22,002 nt of DNA from a virus. A program made the position numbers and the translations under genes. Location: IMG/VR virus record IMGVR_UViG_3300034062_001695, positions 1-22,002 of that record. The stretch is one strand, 5' to 3'. Under the pieces are notes generated by a model, which worked only from the letters and a program-made list of their open reading frames with translations, was not told where the DNA came from and ran no database searches. Positions 9,497 through 18,730 of this stretch are shown here, in pieces; within the stretch, counting starts at the first letter, position 1; the number at the start of each line of letters is the position of its first letter.

Positions 9497-10718
9497 AGAA
9501 TACATAATCGGTCAACTTTTATTCTACGACCAAACTCGTGCAATGTTGCCACGAATCAAATCACAATGGTTTGAAGACAACCTGAACAAACGCATTGTTG
9601 AATCAATGTTGGAGATGTACATAAACAACGATGAGATTGATGTTTTAACTTTGGGAAAGAAGTTTAGCCGTGCGGAGATGGTCACCATCGTCAAACTCAC
9701 GCAGAATGTTTATGGAATGCCAAACATCAGCAGTCACCTTCCAGCACTTGAACACAGGTACCTGAAGAAACAATTCATTGAGAACATCACCAACTTGGAT
9801 TTGACTTCGGACTTAAAAGAGATTCTCACCAATGTTCAGACAATGGTCGACAACACCAAGTTCACTACCATCAATGATCCGGTCACGATTACCCAAGTTA
9901 CCAACAAGACCGTTGATGCTATTATCGAAGCGGTGCAAAGAGGTGACAAGCTCACGGGAAGACCAACGGGATGGGCAGGACTTGACCGAGTATTGGGTGG
10001 ATGGAACAACGGTGATTTGATTGTAATGGCTGCAAGACCCGGTCAGGGTAAAACGGCACTTGCTTTGTCGCTGATGTATGACTTCGCCAAGATTGGTGGT
10101 AAGGGATTGTTCTTGTCGCTGGAGATGAGCAACGAGCAACTTGTCAAAAGATACTTGTCGTTAATCACCGACCTTGCCAATTGGAAGATTCGCAATGCAA
10201 ACCTTCGGGAGTTTGAAGTTCATCAACTGATAAATTCAGCCAACAATCAGACGGTGCAATTCTACATTGATGACGATCCGAATTGCAGTATCCAACAAAT
10301 CAAAAGCAAAGCGAAGATTCACAAAGCAAAACACGGACTTGAACTTTTGGTGATTGATTACATCCAGTTAATCAAAGGAACAAAAACAAACCGAGAACAA
10401 GAGATTGCCGAGATTTCCCGAAACTTAAAATTGCTTTCTAAGGAACTAAACATCACAGTCATAGTGTTGGCTCAGTTATCACGCAAATGTGAGGAGAGAG
10501 CGGACAAAAGACCTATGCTGAGTGATATCCGTGAGAGTGGAAGTATTGAGCAAGATGCGGATGTTGTGATGTTCCCATTCAGACCGGCATACTATTCAGG
10601 TGAGAAGCTCCAACAAGAAGAAGCCGAATTGATTATCGCAAAGAATCGTCACGGTGAATGCTACACAATCAAAACGACATTCATCGGTGAACGCACAATG
10701 TACGAAGAACGACTATGA
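9480..10718 (+). CDS. dnaB: Replicative DNA helicase, DnaB type
   Basis: 412 aa, a typical length for phage DnaB. N-terminal helical domain (residues 1-~105), linker, then RecA-like ATPase: LTGRPTGWAGLDRVLGGW, Walker A ARPGQGKT (185-192), SLEMS (213-217), Walker B LLVIDYIQL (289-297), the sensor/arginine region DIRESGSIEQDADVVMF and the final AKNRHGEC. It forms the hexamer that unwinds DNA at the phage fork, working with the upstream loader. ATGA overlap with the methyltransferase gene. Confident. Confidence 0.95.
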   Translation: MTQELEEYIIGQLLFYDQTRAMLPRIKSQWFEDNLNKRIVESMLEMYINNDEIDVLTLGKKFSRAEMVTIVKLTQNVYGMPNISSHLPALEHRYLKKQFIENITNLDLTSDLKEILTNVQTMVDNTKFTTINDPVTITQVTNKTVDAIIEAVQRGDKLTGRPTGWAGLDRVLGGWNNGDLIVMAARPGQGKTALALSLMYDFAKIGGKGLFLSLEMSNEQLVKRYLSLITDLANWKIRNANLREFEVHQLINSANNQTVQFYIDDDPNCSIQQIKSKAKIHKAKHGLELLVIDYIQLIKGTKTNREQEIAEISRNLKLLSKELNITVIVLAQLSRKCEERADKRPMLSDIRESGSIEQDADVVMFPFRPAYYSGEKLQQEEAELIIAKNRHGECYTIKTTFIGERTMYEERL

Positions 10719-11656
10719 AACACGGAAGTTTATTTTCAGGAATAGGTGGCTTTGATTTAGCAGCCGAATGGATGGGATGGACGAATGTCTTTCATTGCGA
10801 GTGGATGGAATTTCCACGAAAAGTATTGGACTATCACTTCCCTGATGCGGATAGTCACATTGATATATGTAAAACTGATTTCACAAAATATGCAAACAAA
10901 ATTGACATTCTTACTGGAGGATTCCCTTGCCAACCATTCTCACTTGCCGGTAAAAGAAAAGGCACGGATGATGAACGCTACTTGTGGGGCGAGATGCTTA
11001 GAGCAATACAAGAAATTAAACCAAGATTCGTCATTGCTGAAAATGTCTTTGGTATCACGAATATTGATGGCGGATTGGTATTCGAGCAGGTGTGCCTTGA
11101 CTTGGAAAATGAAGGGTACGAAGTTCAGCCGTTTATTATTCCAGCTGCAGCCAAAAACGCACCGCACCGAAGAGATAGATGTTGGTTTATTGCCTACAGT
11201 TCTGCAAGACGGATTGAAGAGATGTGTGAATGGTCAAGCAATAAAAATAAATCCAATAATGCTACCAACTCCAACGGCAATGGATTCGACCAATGCAACG
11301 GCATCAATGAAATCAACACAAGTGAAAGAGGGGAGTATGCATTCAATGACATTGAGCAGATTCCTACTGACTCCGAGTGCATCGGACGGACTGAGATCAG
11401 GTATGACAATGGACAGTTTGAAACGCCACAACAAAGTGAATGCGGAGAACAGCAATTTAGCGGAGCAGATAGCACACAAAGTTGGTGGAGGAACTTCCCA
11501 TCTCAATCCCCGATTTGTAGCGGAGATGATGGGATTCCCACACAACTGGATGGAATTACCTTTTCAAAGTGGAGAGCAGAATCCATCAAAGGCTACGGCA
11601 ACGCAATAGTTCCACAAATCGCCTATCAATTATTTCAAATCATCAACGAGCTATGA
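10715..11656 (+). CDS. DNA (cytosine-5) methyltransferase
   Basis: 313 aa. Motif I LFSGIGGFDL (6-15), motif IV GGFPCQPFS (68-76, catalytic C72), motif VI ENV (109-111), motif VIII APHRRDR (149-155) and motifs IX/X DGITFSKWRAESIKGYGNAIVP (279-300, in parts). All catalytic parts are intact, so it should methylate cytosine at C5, probably to protect phage DNA from host restriction. The target-recognition region (165-255) is unusual: an Asn/Ser/Glu-rich, low-complexity segment. A second frame, 10785-11609, is open across most of the gene and looks protein-like there. Overlaps dnaB and the next gene by 4 bp each. No cognate endonuclease is seen. Confidence 0.92.
   Translation: MKHGSLFSGIGGFDLAAEWMGWTNVFHCEWMEFPRKVLDYHFPDADSHIDICKTDFTKYANKIDILTGGFPCQPFSLAGKRKGTDDERYLWGEMLRAIQEIKPRFVIAENVFGITNIDGGLVFEQVCLDLENEGYEVQPFIIPAAAKNAPHRRDRCWFIAYSSARRIEEMCEWSSNKNKSNNATNSNGNGFDQCNGINEINTSERGEYAFNDIEQIPTDSECIGRTEIRYDNGQFETPQQSECGEQQFSGADSTQSWWRNFPSQSPICSGDDGIPTQLDGITFSKWRAESIKGYGNAIVPQIAYQLFQIINEL
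10785..11609 (+). CDS. Overlapping +1-frame ORF inside the methyltransferase gene (possible overprinted protein)
   Basis: 274 codons from ATG 10785 to TAG, wholly inside the methyltransferase gene in the +1 frame. Far longer than any other same-strand overlapping frame in the window. Its protein has three copies of an LLPTPxAxD-like motif (GLLPTVLQDG 134-143, MLPTPTAMD 159-167, LLTPSASD 194-201), a CALTWKMKGTKFSRLLFQL block (103-121) and an ending with LNPRFVAEMMGFPHNWMELP (240-259). From memory these blocks recur in phage and metagenome proteins annotated as hypothetical or methyltransferase-associated; I cannot confirm this here. It could be a separate protein, a frameshift product sharing the methyltransferase N-terminus, or a by-product of selection on the other frame. 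Confidence 0.4.
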   Translation: MSFIASGWNFHEKYWTITSLMRIVTLIYVKLISQNMQTKLTFLLEDSLANHSHLPVKEKARMMNATCGARCLEQYKKLNQDSSLLKMSLVSRILMADWYSSRCALTWKMKGTKFSRLLFQLQPKTHRTEEIDVGLLPTVLQDGLKRCVNGQAIKINPIMLPTPTAMDSTNATASMKSTQVKEGSMHSMTLSRFLLTPSASDGLRSGMTMDSLKRHNKVNAENSNLAEQIAHKVGGGTSHLNPRFVAEMMGFPHNWMELPFQSGEQNPSKATATQ

Positions 11657-15375: not shown

Positions 15376-16361
15376 AATTACTGATACTTACGGACGGAAT
15401 GAATGGTGTTGTTTACCACCGCTTATTCACGCCACACTTACGGATGCAAATTGACGGACAAGCGGATGTCAGCGTTTGCCAATCACAAGAGGAATGGCTC
15501 ACACTTGATTACACCCAATTTGATGTGATCATCTTCTCACGATGGCTTGGGGCAAGGCATTATGATGTGTTAAAAAAGATTGCTGATTCAGGCACTCCCT
15601 ATGTCGTGGACATTGACGACTATTGGGTTCTCCCAAAATACAACCCAGCATATTGGAACTATCGCAAAGGAATCAAGCAAGGCGTAAAGGATGCCATCAA
15701 TTACGCTGATGCGGTGATCACCACAACTCCAGCACTTGCCAAAGAGATTCGTCAAATCAATGAGAATGTCATCATCGCATCCAACTGCCTTGACTACACA
15801 CACAAGCAATGGGAAGCCGAACCACAACCAAGAACCCACAAAATCAAAGTCGGATGGGTTGGTGGAGTTACTCACGAGGAGGACTTGAAGCTCATTGCTG
15901 AGGAGATCAAAGGAATGGACATTGAGTTTTACATCTGCGGTTATACACCAGGCGAGATTTGGAATCGGATTGCCAAGAGTATGCCCGATGCTAAGATTGT
16001 GGAAGGCACAACCGTGTTTGAATATGGTGAGGTGTACAAGCACTTTGACATCGTGGTCGCACCCTTGCAAGATACCAAGTTCAACAACTGCAAATCTGAG
16101 CTGAAGATACTGGAAGCCAGTGCCTACAAAAAGCCAATCATTTGTTCTGCGGTCTTGCCTTACCTGTATCACACCGCAAACGATGGGGTGCTATTTCTTC
16201 CACGCAACCAATGGAGATCAGGCATTCAGAAGTTGATTGATGCCGGTCACGGAGTTCGTCAGGCAATGGGTCAAAGCAACTACGAGTATTGCAAAAAGCA
16301 TCACAACCTTGAACTCCACAACCTAACCCGATTGCAGTTATACAAATCGTTGTGCAAATAA
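15372..16361 (+). CDS. Glycosyltransferase, GT-B fold (GT1/GT4-like)
   Basis: 329 aa. N-terminal Rossmann-like opening (LLILTDGMNGVVYHRLF), a VVDIDDYW segment, ADAVITTTPALAKEI, then the C-terminal domain KVGWVGGVTHEEDLKLI and the donor-binding block DIVVAPLQDTKFNNCKSELK, ILEASAYKKPIICS with the E-x7-E arrangement. ATGA overlap with the preceding GT9-like gene; the pair probably acts in one pathway. The stop overlaps terL by 10 bp. A phage enzyme that decorates virion proteins, host glycans or DNA is plausible. Confidence 0.85.
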   Translation: MKLLILTDGMNGVVYHRLFTPHLRMQIDGQADVSVCQSQEEWLTLDYTQFDVIIFSRWLGARHYDVLKKIADSGTPYVVDIDDYWVLPKYNPAYWNYRKGIKQGVKDAINYADAVITTTPALAKEIRQINENVIIASNCLDYTHKQWEAEPQPRTHKIKVGWVGGVTHEEDLKLIAEEIKGMDIEFYICGYTPGEIWNRIAKSMPDAKIVEGTTVFEYGEVYKHFDIVVAPLQDTKFNNCKSELKILEASAYKKPIICSAVLPYLYHTANDGVLFLPRNQWRSGIQKLIDAGHGVRQAMGQSNYEYCKKHHNLELHNLTRLQLYKSLCK

Positions 16362-17539
16362 ATTATACACGACCATATCTAACGAACTATCAAAAGGACA
16401 TCCTTGATTGCGATGCCCGTTTCACGATTACGGCTGCGAGTACCAAGACCGGCAAGACCGCATCACATATCATTTGGCTCTTTGAACAAGCACTCCAATG
16501 CAAGGATGGGCAGAGTGTGTGGTGGGTGGCTCCAGTATACCAACAAGCGGAGATTGCATTCCGAAGGATGAAGAACCAAGTAACGGACAAAAACTTCTTC
16601 ATCAGCAACGAAACAAAACTATTGTTGACCTTGCCAACGGGTGCAAGGATTGAATTTAAGTCAGGAGAGAAACCGGACAACTTGTATGGTGATGATGTCT
16701 ATGCTGCCGTGATTGACGAAGCGTCAAGGATGCGTGAGGAATCGTGGTACGCACTGCGTTCAACTTTGACTGCAACACAAGGCAAGTGCAAGTTGATTGG
16801 GAATGTCAAAGGCAAAAAGAATTGGTTCTATAAATTAGGGGAACGAGCAAGGCAAGGAGAAGCCGAATACAAGTATTTCAAAATAACGGCATACGATGCA
16901 GCAAGGGAAGGCATCATCTCGGAGAAAGAGATTGAACAAGCAAAGCGAGATCTACCTGATTATGTATTCCGTGAACTCTACCTTGCAGAACCAGCCGATG
17001 ACAAATCAAATCCGTTCGGCTTGGATGCAATCCGCAAATGTTACCGACCAATTTCATCAATGCCCGTTGTTGCTTGGGGTGTAGATTTGGCAAAGTATTC
17101 GGACTATACGGTTATTATTGGTATGGATGCGAATAATTGCGTATCATATTGTGAACGATTCCAAGCCGATTGGTCAGTCACTCAAGCGAGGATTGTCAAA
17201 CTGATTGGAAACACACCATCGTTTGTGGATTCGACCGGGGTTGGAGATCCTATCGTTGAACAACTTCAGCGACTTTGTCAAAGAGTGAAGGGATTCAAGT
17301 TTACAAGCCAAAGCAAACAACAACTCATTGAAGGGTTGGTGATGTCGGTGCAACAAACCGATGTGTTCTTTCCTGAAGAACCGATTGGAAGTGAGATGGA
17401 GAACTTTGAATTTGAGTACACAAGAACGGGTGTGCGATATACTGCACCGCCCGGACTACACGATGACTGTGTAATGGCTCTCGCACTTGCCGTTGATTGC
17501 AAAGCTCACAATAGACCAGGAACATTTTACTTCGCATAA
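16352..17539 (+). CDS. terL: Terminase large subunit (ATPase/nuclease)
   Basis: 395 aa from GTG 16352, inside the end of the glycosyltransferase gene; no ATG is available near it. ATPase: Walker A AASTKTGKT (28-36), WVAPVYQQAEIAF, Walker B VYAAVIDEAS (116-125), coupling GNVKG (150-154). Nuclease: WGVDLAKYSDY (D245), FVDSTGVGD (D293), HDDCVMALALA (D371/D372), all three metal sites intact. This motor pumps DNA into the procapsid and cuts it. Very clear family match. It ends one base before the tail chaperone gene. Confidence 0.95.
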   Translation: MQINYTRPYLTNYQKDILDCDARFTITAASTKTGKTASHIIWLFEQALQCKDGQSVWWVAPVYQQAEIAFRRMKNQVTDKNFFISNETKLLLTLPTGARIEFKSGEKPDNLYGDDVYAAVIDEASRMREESWYALRSTLTATQGKCKLIGNVKGKKNWFYKLGERARQGEAEYKYFKITAYDAAREGIISEKEIEQAKRDLPDYVFRELYLAEPADDKSNPFGLDAIRKCYRPISSMPVVAWGVDLAKYSDYTVIIGMDANNCVSYCERFQADWSVTQARIVKLIGNTPSFVDSTGVGDPIVEQLQRLCQRVKGFKFTSQSKQQLIEGLVMSVQQTDVFFPEEPIGSEMENFEFEYTRTGVRYTAPPGLHDDCVMALALAVDCKAHNRPGTFYFA

Positions 17540-17540
17540 T

Positions 17541-18101
17541 ATGAATTGGAAAAACATAACCATCCACCAACTTCAAGAGATTCACTCTTGTCGTGATATG
17601 TCTGACCTTGAGAGGCAGATGAACATCCTTGCCATCGCTTTGAATCTTTCAATGGATGAGGTCGAGTCAATGACATTGGACAAGCTCACAAACGAGTTTA
17701 CTAAGTTGTCGTTCTTGAATGACCTACCCAAAGCACCAATCAAGTTCACCTTCAAACTGCGTGGCAGATATTTCAGATTAGCCAAAACGCCAAACGAGAT
17801 GTGTGGTCACCACTTCATCGAACTCCAGCAGGTATTCAACGGAGATGTGATTGAATCGCTCAATAAGATTGTTGCCTTGCTATCCGTTGAGGTGGATTTC
17901 TTTGGAAGGAACAAGAAGGTCGTTGATGCTCAAGCACACTATGAGGATAAGTGTGGCTTAATGATGCACTTGCCCGTTCCACTTCCGTACACTTATGCTC
18001 TTTTTTTTTTGGAAGTTTATCCCGAGTTATTGAAAAATATCCTTTGCTCTTTGACGGATCAGATGAAGGAGATGAAAGAGCAGTTGACCAATCCCCAATA
18101 G
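17541..18101 (+). CDS. Tail assembly chaperone, short form (gpG-like)
   Basis: 186 aa from ATG 17541, one base after terL (the same frame continues upstream to ATG 17487 inside terL). N-terminal ITIHQLQEIHSCRDMSDLER, then DEVESMTLDKLTNEFTKLSF, a strand (IKFTFKLRGRYFRLA) and HHFIELQQVFNG match the type of helical chaperone encoded before the tape measure or tail genes of Bacteroidetes phages. Near the end, frame 0 crosses CTT TTT TTT TTG (18000-18011) and continues 34 residues to TAG 18099-18101. The -1 frame from that run is open for a further ~290 bases, so this is probably the unshifted product of a frameshift pair. Confidence 0.7.
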   Translation: MNWKNITIHQLQEIHSCRDMSDLERQMNILAIALNLSMDEVESMTLDKLTNEFTKLSFLNDLPKAPIKFTFKLRGRYFRLAKTPNEMCGHHFIELQQVFNGDVIESLNKIVALLSVEVDFFGRNKKVVDAQAHYEDKCGLMMHLPVPLPYTYALFFLEVYPELLKNILCSLTDQMKEMKEQLTNPQ

Positions 18102-18301
18102 TTTGGCTGGAGATAGTTGACAAGATTGTCAAAGGTGATCGCACCAAGTGGGATTTCATACTGGAGATGCCGTTGATTGAGTTCTTGAATTCAATGGCAT
18201 TCTACAAAGCCAAGACCAAAGAACGGCAGAAGCGTTTGGAGGATGCTGCCGGGAAAGGATTCAATCCGTACATCGTGGCTTGTCTGAATGAGATGTTGTG
18301 A
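17541..18301 (+). CDS. Tail assembly chaperone, -1 frameshifted long form (gpGT-like)
   Basis: Joining frame 0 up to 18008 with the -1 frame from 18008 gives 253 aa ending at TGA 18299-18301. The -1 part (GSLSRVIEKYPLLFDGSDEG, then PIVWLEIVDKIVKGDRTKWD, then LEMPLIEFLNSMAFYKAKTK) has the composition and pattern of the T domain of tail chaperones. It has no ATG before 18167, leaving only 44 residues if started there, so it is most simply expressed by frameshifting or the T run is misread by one base. Programmed -1 shifting at this position is known for lambda G/GT and many siphophages. Exact efficiency unknown. Confidence 0.65.
18000..18010 (+). promoter_or_regulatory. Probable -1 ribosomal frameshift slippery site (C then T10)
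   Basis: C followed by ten T at 18001-18010 gives several T-TTT-TTT heptamers in frame 0, an X-XXY-YYZ slippery sequence. The following GGAAGTTTATCCCGAG shows no strong pseudoknot by eye. It joins the two chaperone frames. Confidence 0.6.
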
Positions 18302-18359
18302 TACCGAGCGGTATAATACCAAGCAGTATCAATTGCGATGCACTAAATTATCCCAATCG

Positions 18360-18387
18360 GTAACAAATTTGTGGCAGTATTTGTTAC
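18360..18387. repeat. Inverted repeat, 9-bp arms
   Basis: GTAACAAAT (18360-18368) and ATTTGTTAC (18379-18387) are perfect reverse complements around a 10-base loop. No T run follows, so it is an operator or RNA hairpin rather than a clear terminator. Confidence 0.65.
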
Positions 18388-18426
18388 AAATTGCCAATTT
18401 ATAGGATTAGTGGCAAATGTTGGTTG

Positions 18427-18606
18427 TCAAATTTTTCCACTATACTCGGTAATTACCCGAATAACTGCATGAAATTTTCCAGTATATTCATTCATAAAAG
18501 TCATTTGTTGCGATAAGTATTGGGAATCACTACTGATTGCAAAGTATTTATGTCTGATTTGTCCATCATAAGTATACGCATTCGGGTATAATGTGGTATA
18601 AAACAC
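18427..18606 (-). CDS. Possible small antisense-strand ORF, 59 aa
   Basis: On the minus strand, from GTG (18606-18604) to TGA (18429-18427): VFYTTLYPNAYTYDGQIRHK, then FAISSDSQYLSQQ, then EYTGKFHAVIRVITEYSGKI at the end. The composition looks protein-like (strand/helix/strand) and contains two EY-GK copies that make a direct DNA repeat. It would be the only minus-strand gene. There is no ATG near the start; a TAATTTTG (-7-like) on this strand lies so close to the GTG that transcription would begin after it. The start also sits in the ACCCAAAA/TTTTGGGT hairpin. A frame this long in A/T-rich DNA can occur by chance, so this is tentative, possibly a gene remnant. Confidence 0.25.
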   Translation of the reverse strand: MFYTTLYPNAYTYDGQIRHKYFAISSDSQYLSQQMTFMNEYTGKFHAVIRVITEYSGKI

Positions 18607-18628
18607 CCAAAATTATATGCTTTTGGGT
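18605..18628. repeat. Inverted repeat, 8-bp arms
   Basis: ACCCAAAA (18605-18612), loop TTATATGC, TTTTGGGT (18621-18628), perfect arms. Overlaps the presumed start of the minus-strand ORF. Confidence 0.65.
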
Positions 18629-18640
18629 ACTATATGACAC

Positions 18641-18662
18641 ATTATTGTGCAATTATTGTGCA
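18641..18662 (+). repeat. Tandem 11-bp direct repeat
   Basis: ATTATTGTGCA occurs twice in a row (18641-18651, 18652-18662), about 70 bp before the next gene. Could be paired binding sites for a regulator. Confidence 0.6.
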
Positions 18663-18730
18663 ATCAATCAACTAATATATTGGTCAATGTGGTTCAAAAT
18701 GGGTGCAATTAACCATTATAAAGTGCAAAG

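Follow-up and report, generated by a model that had tools for sequence, protein, structure and literature searches.

The window, by which we mean the whole stretch of 22,002 nucleotides of viral DNA analysed here, carries directly behind its terminase gene a reading frame that passes through a run of ten T residues and ends soon afterwards, while the -1 frame stays open for longer. This raises the question whether the locus encodes two proteins with a common N-terminal part and, if so, how the second frame is entered. The earlier note on this DNA had proposed a programmed -1 frameshift in a tail assembly chaperone gene. Based on the comparison with relatives described below, we consider it highly likely that two proteins sharing their N-terminal part are made by programmed -1 frameshifting, in an arrangement that resembles lambda G/GT in its anatomy. 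Very probably, some ribosomes slip back one base and thereby produce the longer protein. Among the open PMC papers listed in literature searches, as far as their available text goes, none on a frameshift in this gene was recognised.

Layout of the gene downstream of terL

The immediate upstream neighbour is the gene for the terminase large subunit (terL, 16352-17539, plus strand), which matched phrog_2 (E 9.8e-36) and Pfam Terminase_6N. The terL stop lies at 17539 and the ATG of the frame-0 gene follows one base after it. This gene (17541-18101, plus strand) runs from the ATG at 17541 to a TAG at 18099-18101 and encodes a putative short, G-like product of 186 aa. The T10 run (18001-18010, plus strand) is read in frame 0 as CTT TTT TTT TTG, with an in-phase T_TTT_TTT at 18002-18008 and an overlapping T_TTT_TTG at 18005-18011; the slip site had correctly been described as a homopolymer and not of the lambda type. 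The -1-frame extension (18008-18301, plus strand) consists of 97 codons (18008-18298) and a TGA stop at 18299-18301 and encodes the predicted T-like domain. Together with 156 frame-0 codons it gives a frameshift product of 253 aa. These coordinates agree with the T10 run in frame 0 and the 97 open codons reported before. The first -1-frame ATG past the slip is indeed at 18167, but a GTG in the same frame upstream of the slip (17951-17953, plus strand), a rival start that is rejected below, had been overlooked. The tail of the short frame likewise exists; it measures 30 codons after the second TTT of the slip, the 34 residues given previously having been counted from slightly upstream. This tail was included in alignment A3 (12 sequences). 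Its DNA is shared with the -1 extension from 18012 to 18098 (plus strand), and in this dual-coded stretch synonymous change was reduced in both frames relative to the single-coded flanks.

In the proposed mechanism, most ribosomes would stay in frame 0 and finish at 18101, yielding the 186-aa protein, and a minority would slip by -1 on the U-run and continue to 18301, yielding the 253-aa protein. The slip could occur by re-pairing of tRNA-Phe on U_UUU_UUU or by slippage on U_UUU_UUG. On both strands of the window T9 was matched 3 times (two of these inside T10), against 2.28 +/- 2.11 times in shuffled sequences. The T-run by itself is therefore no evidence, and the case rests on the relatives.

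Between the frameshift gene and the next gene lies a segment without a clear gene (18302-18730). A counterpart of 97-449 bp was present in 21 of the 48 close relatives measured and absent in the other 27. The segment contains imperfect inverted repeats and folds somewhat better than shuffled sequences (z -2.08); comparison with Rfam gave no credible family (best E 0.28, far below the gathering score).

Slip site and second reading frame in relatives

The initial set of relatives comprised 77 loci, of which 50 close and 24 distant ones cover the slip site and three stop short of it. Exactly T10 was present in all 50 close relatives (89% identity or more). In the distant relatives, T6C was found in 23 and T6 in another phase in one (L074). 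When all sets of relatives were pooled and made distinct over 240 nt around the slip, an in-phase XXXYYYZ heptamer was kept at 247 of 250 sites; among the matches listed, it was T_TTT_TTT at 218, T_TTT_TTC at 18 and A_AAT_TTT at 11. The last type occupies the homologous place, in phase, in a clade of 13 loci (from the scan with L422, which is itself included). A search of relatives for preserved slippery runs had been suggested earlier as a check on the frameshift, and its outcome was positive. The exceptions are three distinct sequences (L074, L084 and L085) with the frame-0 codons GTT TTT TCT TTG; these keep the -1 arrangement with neither a tandem heptamer nor a long run, and would need a slip in the P site.

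Each of the Phe codons of the slip was identical in every sequence of its set, and both were TTT in 37 of 37 sequences of the window clade. As a control, alignment columns of Phe outside the slip were inspected. A single codon was used in 2 of 9 such columns in the window clade, 3 of 10 in the CT9 clade, 4 of 9 in the T6C clade, where the control is less sharp, and 1 of 11 in one P12024S-related group; the GT9 clade had no Phe columns and was left out.

The second domain was in the -1 frame in all 128 distinct window-family sequences and was fused in none. These 128 were derived from 302 two-domain loci with many repeated contigs, in a set drawn partly from the best 80 of 207 and the best 80 of 281 relatives; six loci matching the first domain only (partial matches) were not counted. 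A scan with the -1 domain gave the same picture: among the best 80 of at least 452 relatives (80 distinct), 78 had a long upstream ORF in -1 relation, and the other two were L441, which is cut short but has T9, and L422, which has A_AAT_TTT. At the level of sequence, comparison of the relatives demonstrates the arrangement of the reading frames, the conserved slip site and the constraint on both frames that is described in the next section.

A cultured representative came from a different search. The AlphaFold model of the frame-0 protein matched a protein of Nonlabens phage P12024S in BFVD (E 3.3e-8), and the Nonlabens (Persicivirga) phages P12024S and P12024L are cultured relatives. Like the gene in the window, P12024S gp38 directly follows the terminase gene and carries an in-phase T9 (CTT TTT TTT TAT), past which the -1 frame is open and encodes a -1 domain; both halves matched in profile comparisons with the P12024S family (E 2.7e-9 and 1.9e-9). 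Unlike in the window, where we describe one gene, the P12024S locus (L314; NC_018271, 23136-23830) is annotated as two separate hypothetical genes, gp38 and gp39, which appear in PHROGs as two families of unknown function (32199 and 38404). Probably gp38 and gp39 are one frameshifted gene. In total 63 P12024S-related loci were found. With the partial locus L378 left out of the counts, T9 or longer was in place in 62 of 62 loci examined (46 distinct), and in all 46 distinct sequences the T-run had the same phase and the -1 frame was open beyond it, cuts at contig ends aside. Since P12024S infects Persicivirga, a Bacteroidota host is suggested for the phage of the window, and the phages with this arrangement probably infect Bacteroidota. 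A tblastn search of INPHARED with the frame-0 protein of the window gave no matches and also missed P12024S; no relatives were found in the bacterial genome contigs scanned. Flavobacterium phage 6H gp10, a structural match, was rejected as a further case: TTTTTTC is present, but in the -1 frame a stop follows after a few codons.

Coding constraint and alternative routes to the second frame

Synonymous and non-synonymous change (pS and pN) was compared in four clades of the window family, keeping only sequences with the commonest geometry (35 of 37, 35 of 47, 19 of 19 and 21 of 21; 2 and 12 were dropped). Frame-0 pS was 0.24, 0.41, 0.36 and 0.55 over the 60 nt directly preceding the slip, 0 in all four clades over the 12-nt slip, and 0.14, 0.10, 0.08 and 0.06 after it. 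In the -1 frame, pN/pS before the slip was 1.9, 3.0, 3.7 and 3.5, so that this frame looks non-coding there. Within the overlap -1-frame pS was 0.090, 0.077, 0.061 and 0.035, rising to 0.293, 0.295, 0.274 and 0.310 after the frame-0 stop. Overlap pN/pS was 1.02, 0.37, 0.61 and 0.93 for the -1 frame and 0.57, 0.30, 0.42 and 0.44 for frame 0; the -1 values near 1 in two clades are as expected where two frames share the DNA and are by themselves no sign of coding. The window clade was the least clean: pS was 0.18 over the 30 nt directly preceding the slip, and in the final 24-nt window at the end of the frame-0 tail it was not reduced (0.32). Third positions of the -1 frame are second positions of frame 0, and reduced -1-frame pS therefore indicates constraint on the frame-0 tail, unless an RNA element explains it. 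Both alternative tails look constrained. The statement that both products could be real gains from this, as synonymous change in the -1 frame was reduced where frame 0 is still open.

The switch in coding constraint at the slip was seen in these four clades and in three groups of the P12024S family. In the largest P12024S-related group (17 distinct sequences) both frames stay open beyond the slip, frame 0 for 86 codons and the -1 frame for 94; frame-0 pS was 0.35 upstream of the slip and 0.04 downstream, and -1-frame pS in the overlap was 0.066. The two smaller groups (5 sequences each) gave frame-0 values of 0.46 to 0.16 with a -1-frame pS of 0.036, and 0.40 to 0.05 with 0.144; in one group of five, frame-0 pS was still high in the first windows after the slip. 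In the 17-sequence group constraint seems to act on the two alternative tails alike for about 258 nt, the least expected part of the results.

Three other explanations of the open second frame have to be weighed against a ribosomal frameshift. Homopolymers are error-prone and the window is a single metagenomic contig, so the arrangement could reflect a sequencing error or a decayed gene. The ten T residues in all 50 close relatives come from separate contigs, however, which excludes an error, and purifying selection upstream as well as downstream of it speaks against decay; the chance of either is negligible. The second ORF might instead be a separate gene, initiated at a -1-frame ATG or GTG about 49 nt before the slip (17951 in the window) or re-initiated downstream. 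Such a codon does recur: at the place of the window GTG all 48 close relatives examined have ATG (41) or GTG (7), and 24 of 24 more distant loci have ATG, not always inside the open -1 stretch; moreover, the annotation of P12024S starts gp39 at an inner ATG. In the T6C clade this ATG lies within the open -1 stretch in 15 of 21 distinct sequences and some start codon, TTG included, in 21 of 21, so that this clade alone cannot decide on internal initiation. Yet the open -1 stretch upstream of the slip lacks any start codon in 36 of 121 distinct sequences (by five groups 3/35, 7/35, 15/19, 0/21 and 11/11) and in all 13 loci of the A_AAT_TTT clade, and by our reading the recurrent ATG or GTG arises from a conserved frame-0 Cys codon. 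The pN/pS of 1.9-3.7 before the slip also disagrees with translation of the -1 frame from there, and because the similarity of the -1 domain between clades begins at the slip, a start downstream would lose part of the domain. These comparisons argue strongly against internal initiation, which we regard as very improbable. The proposal of a programmed -1 frameshift has thus held up, with a conserved slip site, no in-frame fusion, no consistent second start and a switch in constraint at the slip. Neither of the two findings named beforehand as speaking against it, reads with nine or eleven T or homologues with a normal start codon for the second gene, turned up.

The remaining alternative is transcriptional: RNA polymerase would slip on the T9-T10 run, and ordinary translation of a transcript with one U more, or two U fewer, would then reach the -1 frame. 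According to the available text of PMC3711429, programmed transcriptional realignment often uses homopolymers of at least 8, or two shorter homopolymers combined. The window clade and all 62 P12024S-related loci examined retain 9-10 T in a row, and a T-to-C change at the last base of the heptamer occurs in 0 of 46 distinct P12024S-related sequences, although in each of them it would be synonymous in either frame. As the run in these phages stays at 9-10 despite the silent change available, an added part for transcriptional slippage is conceivable. A homopolymer of about 8 or more was not found in all members, however: 18 distinct sites have just T6 followed by C, another 11 carry A_AAT_TTT, where the longest run is 4, and 3 have T6. 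In the T6C and A_AAT_TTT sites the heptamer is intact and in phase; A3T4 may loosely be called two short homopolymers, but they are short. That XXXYYYZ stays in phase while its letters vary (U_UUU_UUU, U_UUU_UUC, A_AAU_UUU) points to tandem slippage of ribosomes, and the clades with T6C or A_AAT_TTT make slippage during translation a better explanation than slippage during transcription. We infer that it is the ribosome that slips, and consider polymerase slippage unlikely as the explanation. In the available text of PMC5009743, A_AAA_AAG is described as more prone to shifting in E. coli than U_UUU_UUU. A shared downstream RNA structure was not detected, RNAalifold finding no pairs on 10 sequences; single downstream folds gave scattered z-scores (-2.6 to +2.3), and a long-range helix was present in folds of the window clade. 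The natural series of slip sites at a homologous position, comprising U_UUU_UUU, U_UUU_UUC, U_UUU_UUG, A_AAU_UUU and a small clade without a tandem site, makes both slip-site evolution and ribosomal versus transcriptional slippage testable.

Genomic context and likeness to lambda G/GT

A TerL match closely precedes the gene in all 125 window-family loci and in 41 of 43 and 45 of 72 loci of two further sets, counting loci with at least 600 nt of flank and using two TerL queries; in the last set the gene start is approximate. In a 32-kb relative (G007) terL is followed by the frameshift gene, by two genes for proteins of 377 and 908 aa, the latter with a weak baseplate match, and by the tape-measure gene (phrog_24676, E 1.7e-8), about 3.9 kb downstream of the frameshift gene. 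Next come the genes for an XkdF-type protease, for a 177-aa protein without assigned function and for a possible capsid protein. The earlier note had stated that G/GT-type shifting is conserved in siphophages at this genomic position. The lambda position, between the tail-tube and tape-measure genes, does not apply here: the gene directly follows terL, and no tube gene was recognised in G007.

The predicted protein matched no function in Pfam and PHROGs scans, and hence no known chaperone family; one A4 member matched phrog_166 ('tail protein', E 0.0049). Searches of PDB sequences with both profiles gave no match. AlphaFold modelled the frame-0 protein with a mean pLDDT of 77 and the -1 domain with a pLDDT of 68. 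A PDB fold search with the frame-0 model returned nothing at E <= 0.001. In a second-look comparison of its residues 1-63 with PDB structures, the HK97 tail assembly chaperone (2ob9) came out on top with Z 3.3 over 58 residues, a weak match that lies within Z 1 of unrelated rows and is no proof of kinship. A BFVD match named tail assembly chaperone had E 0.089. The -1-domain model had no row at Z >= 2 among 10 second-look chains and nothing at E <= 0.001 in a viral structure library.

The anatomy does resemble that of lambda gpG/gpGT: a short product and its -1 extension, a slip on a heptamer, a second frame without a start of its own, and a phage with a tape-measure gene. The lambda slip heptamer is G_GGA_AAG, whereas U_UUU_UUU or A_AAU_UUU is found here. 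In addition, the gene directly follows terL and does not adjoin the tape-measure gene, and the Pfam and PHROGs scans found no sequence kinship. The two frames overlap by 30 codons in the window and by as many as 86 in relatives, whereas in lambda the slip is near the 3' end of g, as located in the available text of PMC5009743. Since neither the lambda position nor a sequence match was found, the gene is said to work like G/GT and is not filed as a member. From the anatomy we infer that a role as tail assembly chaperone, which the earlier note had stated, is likely; Pfam and PHROGs gave it no function match and the structural support was weak. As in lambda, many short molecules would coat the tape-measure protein and the few long ones would recruit tail-tube subunits.

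The chances seem to us about even that the slip does not add a domain but swaps one: there would be two conserved, functional C-terminal tails, and slippage would set the ratio of two chaperones with different partners. That reading includes a wide distribution of the arrangement among uncultured, probably Bacteroidota-infecting phages, most of them with an uninterrupted run of U9-10. If true, dual use of the same DNA would extend over 30 codons in the window and over 86 in relatives, and the relatives with 86 codons would make two chaperones of similar size. With the frameshift, a large and mostly uncultured group of phages gains a probable long product that had been missing, and that is split in the annotation of the cultured relative. 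Owing to its length, the dual-coded overlap offers a way to test what the frame-0 tail does, and P12024S and P12024L exist as cultured phages.

A separate observation in the window concerns another pair of overlapping frames. An ORF of 274 aa (10785-11609, plus strand) is completely contained in the C5 cytosine methyltransferase gene (10715-11656), from which it differs in frame. It matched PHROG 1008 (DNA methyltransferase, E 9.3e-26) and had no Pfam match. The nested ORF matched 78 phage records, 64 of them over at least 80% of its length, and in Paenibacillus phage Tadhana the annotated methyltransferase CDSs gp54 and gp55 are nested likewise. Apparently this is a long nested gene that has been retained in different groups of phages.
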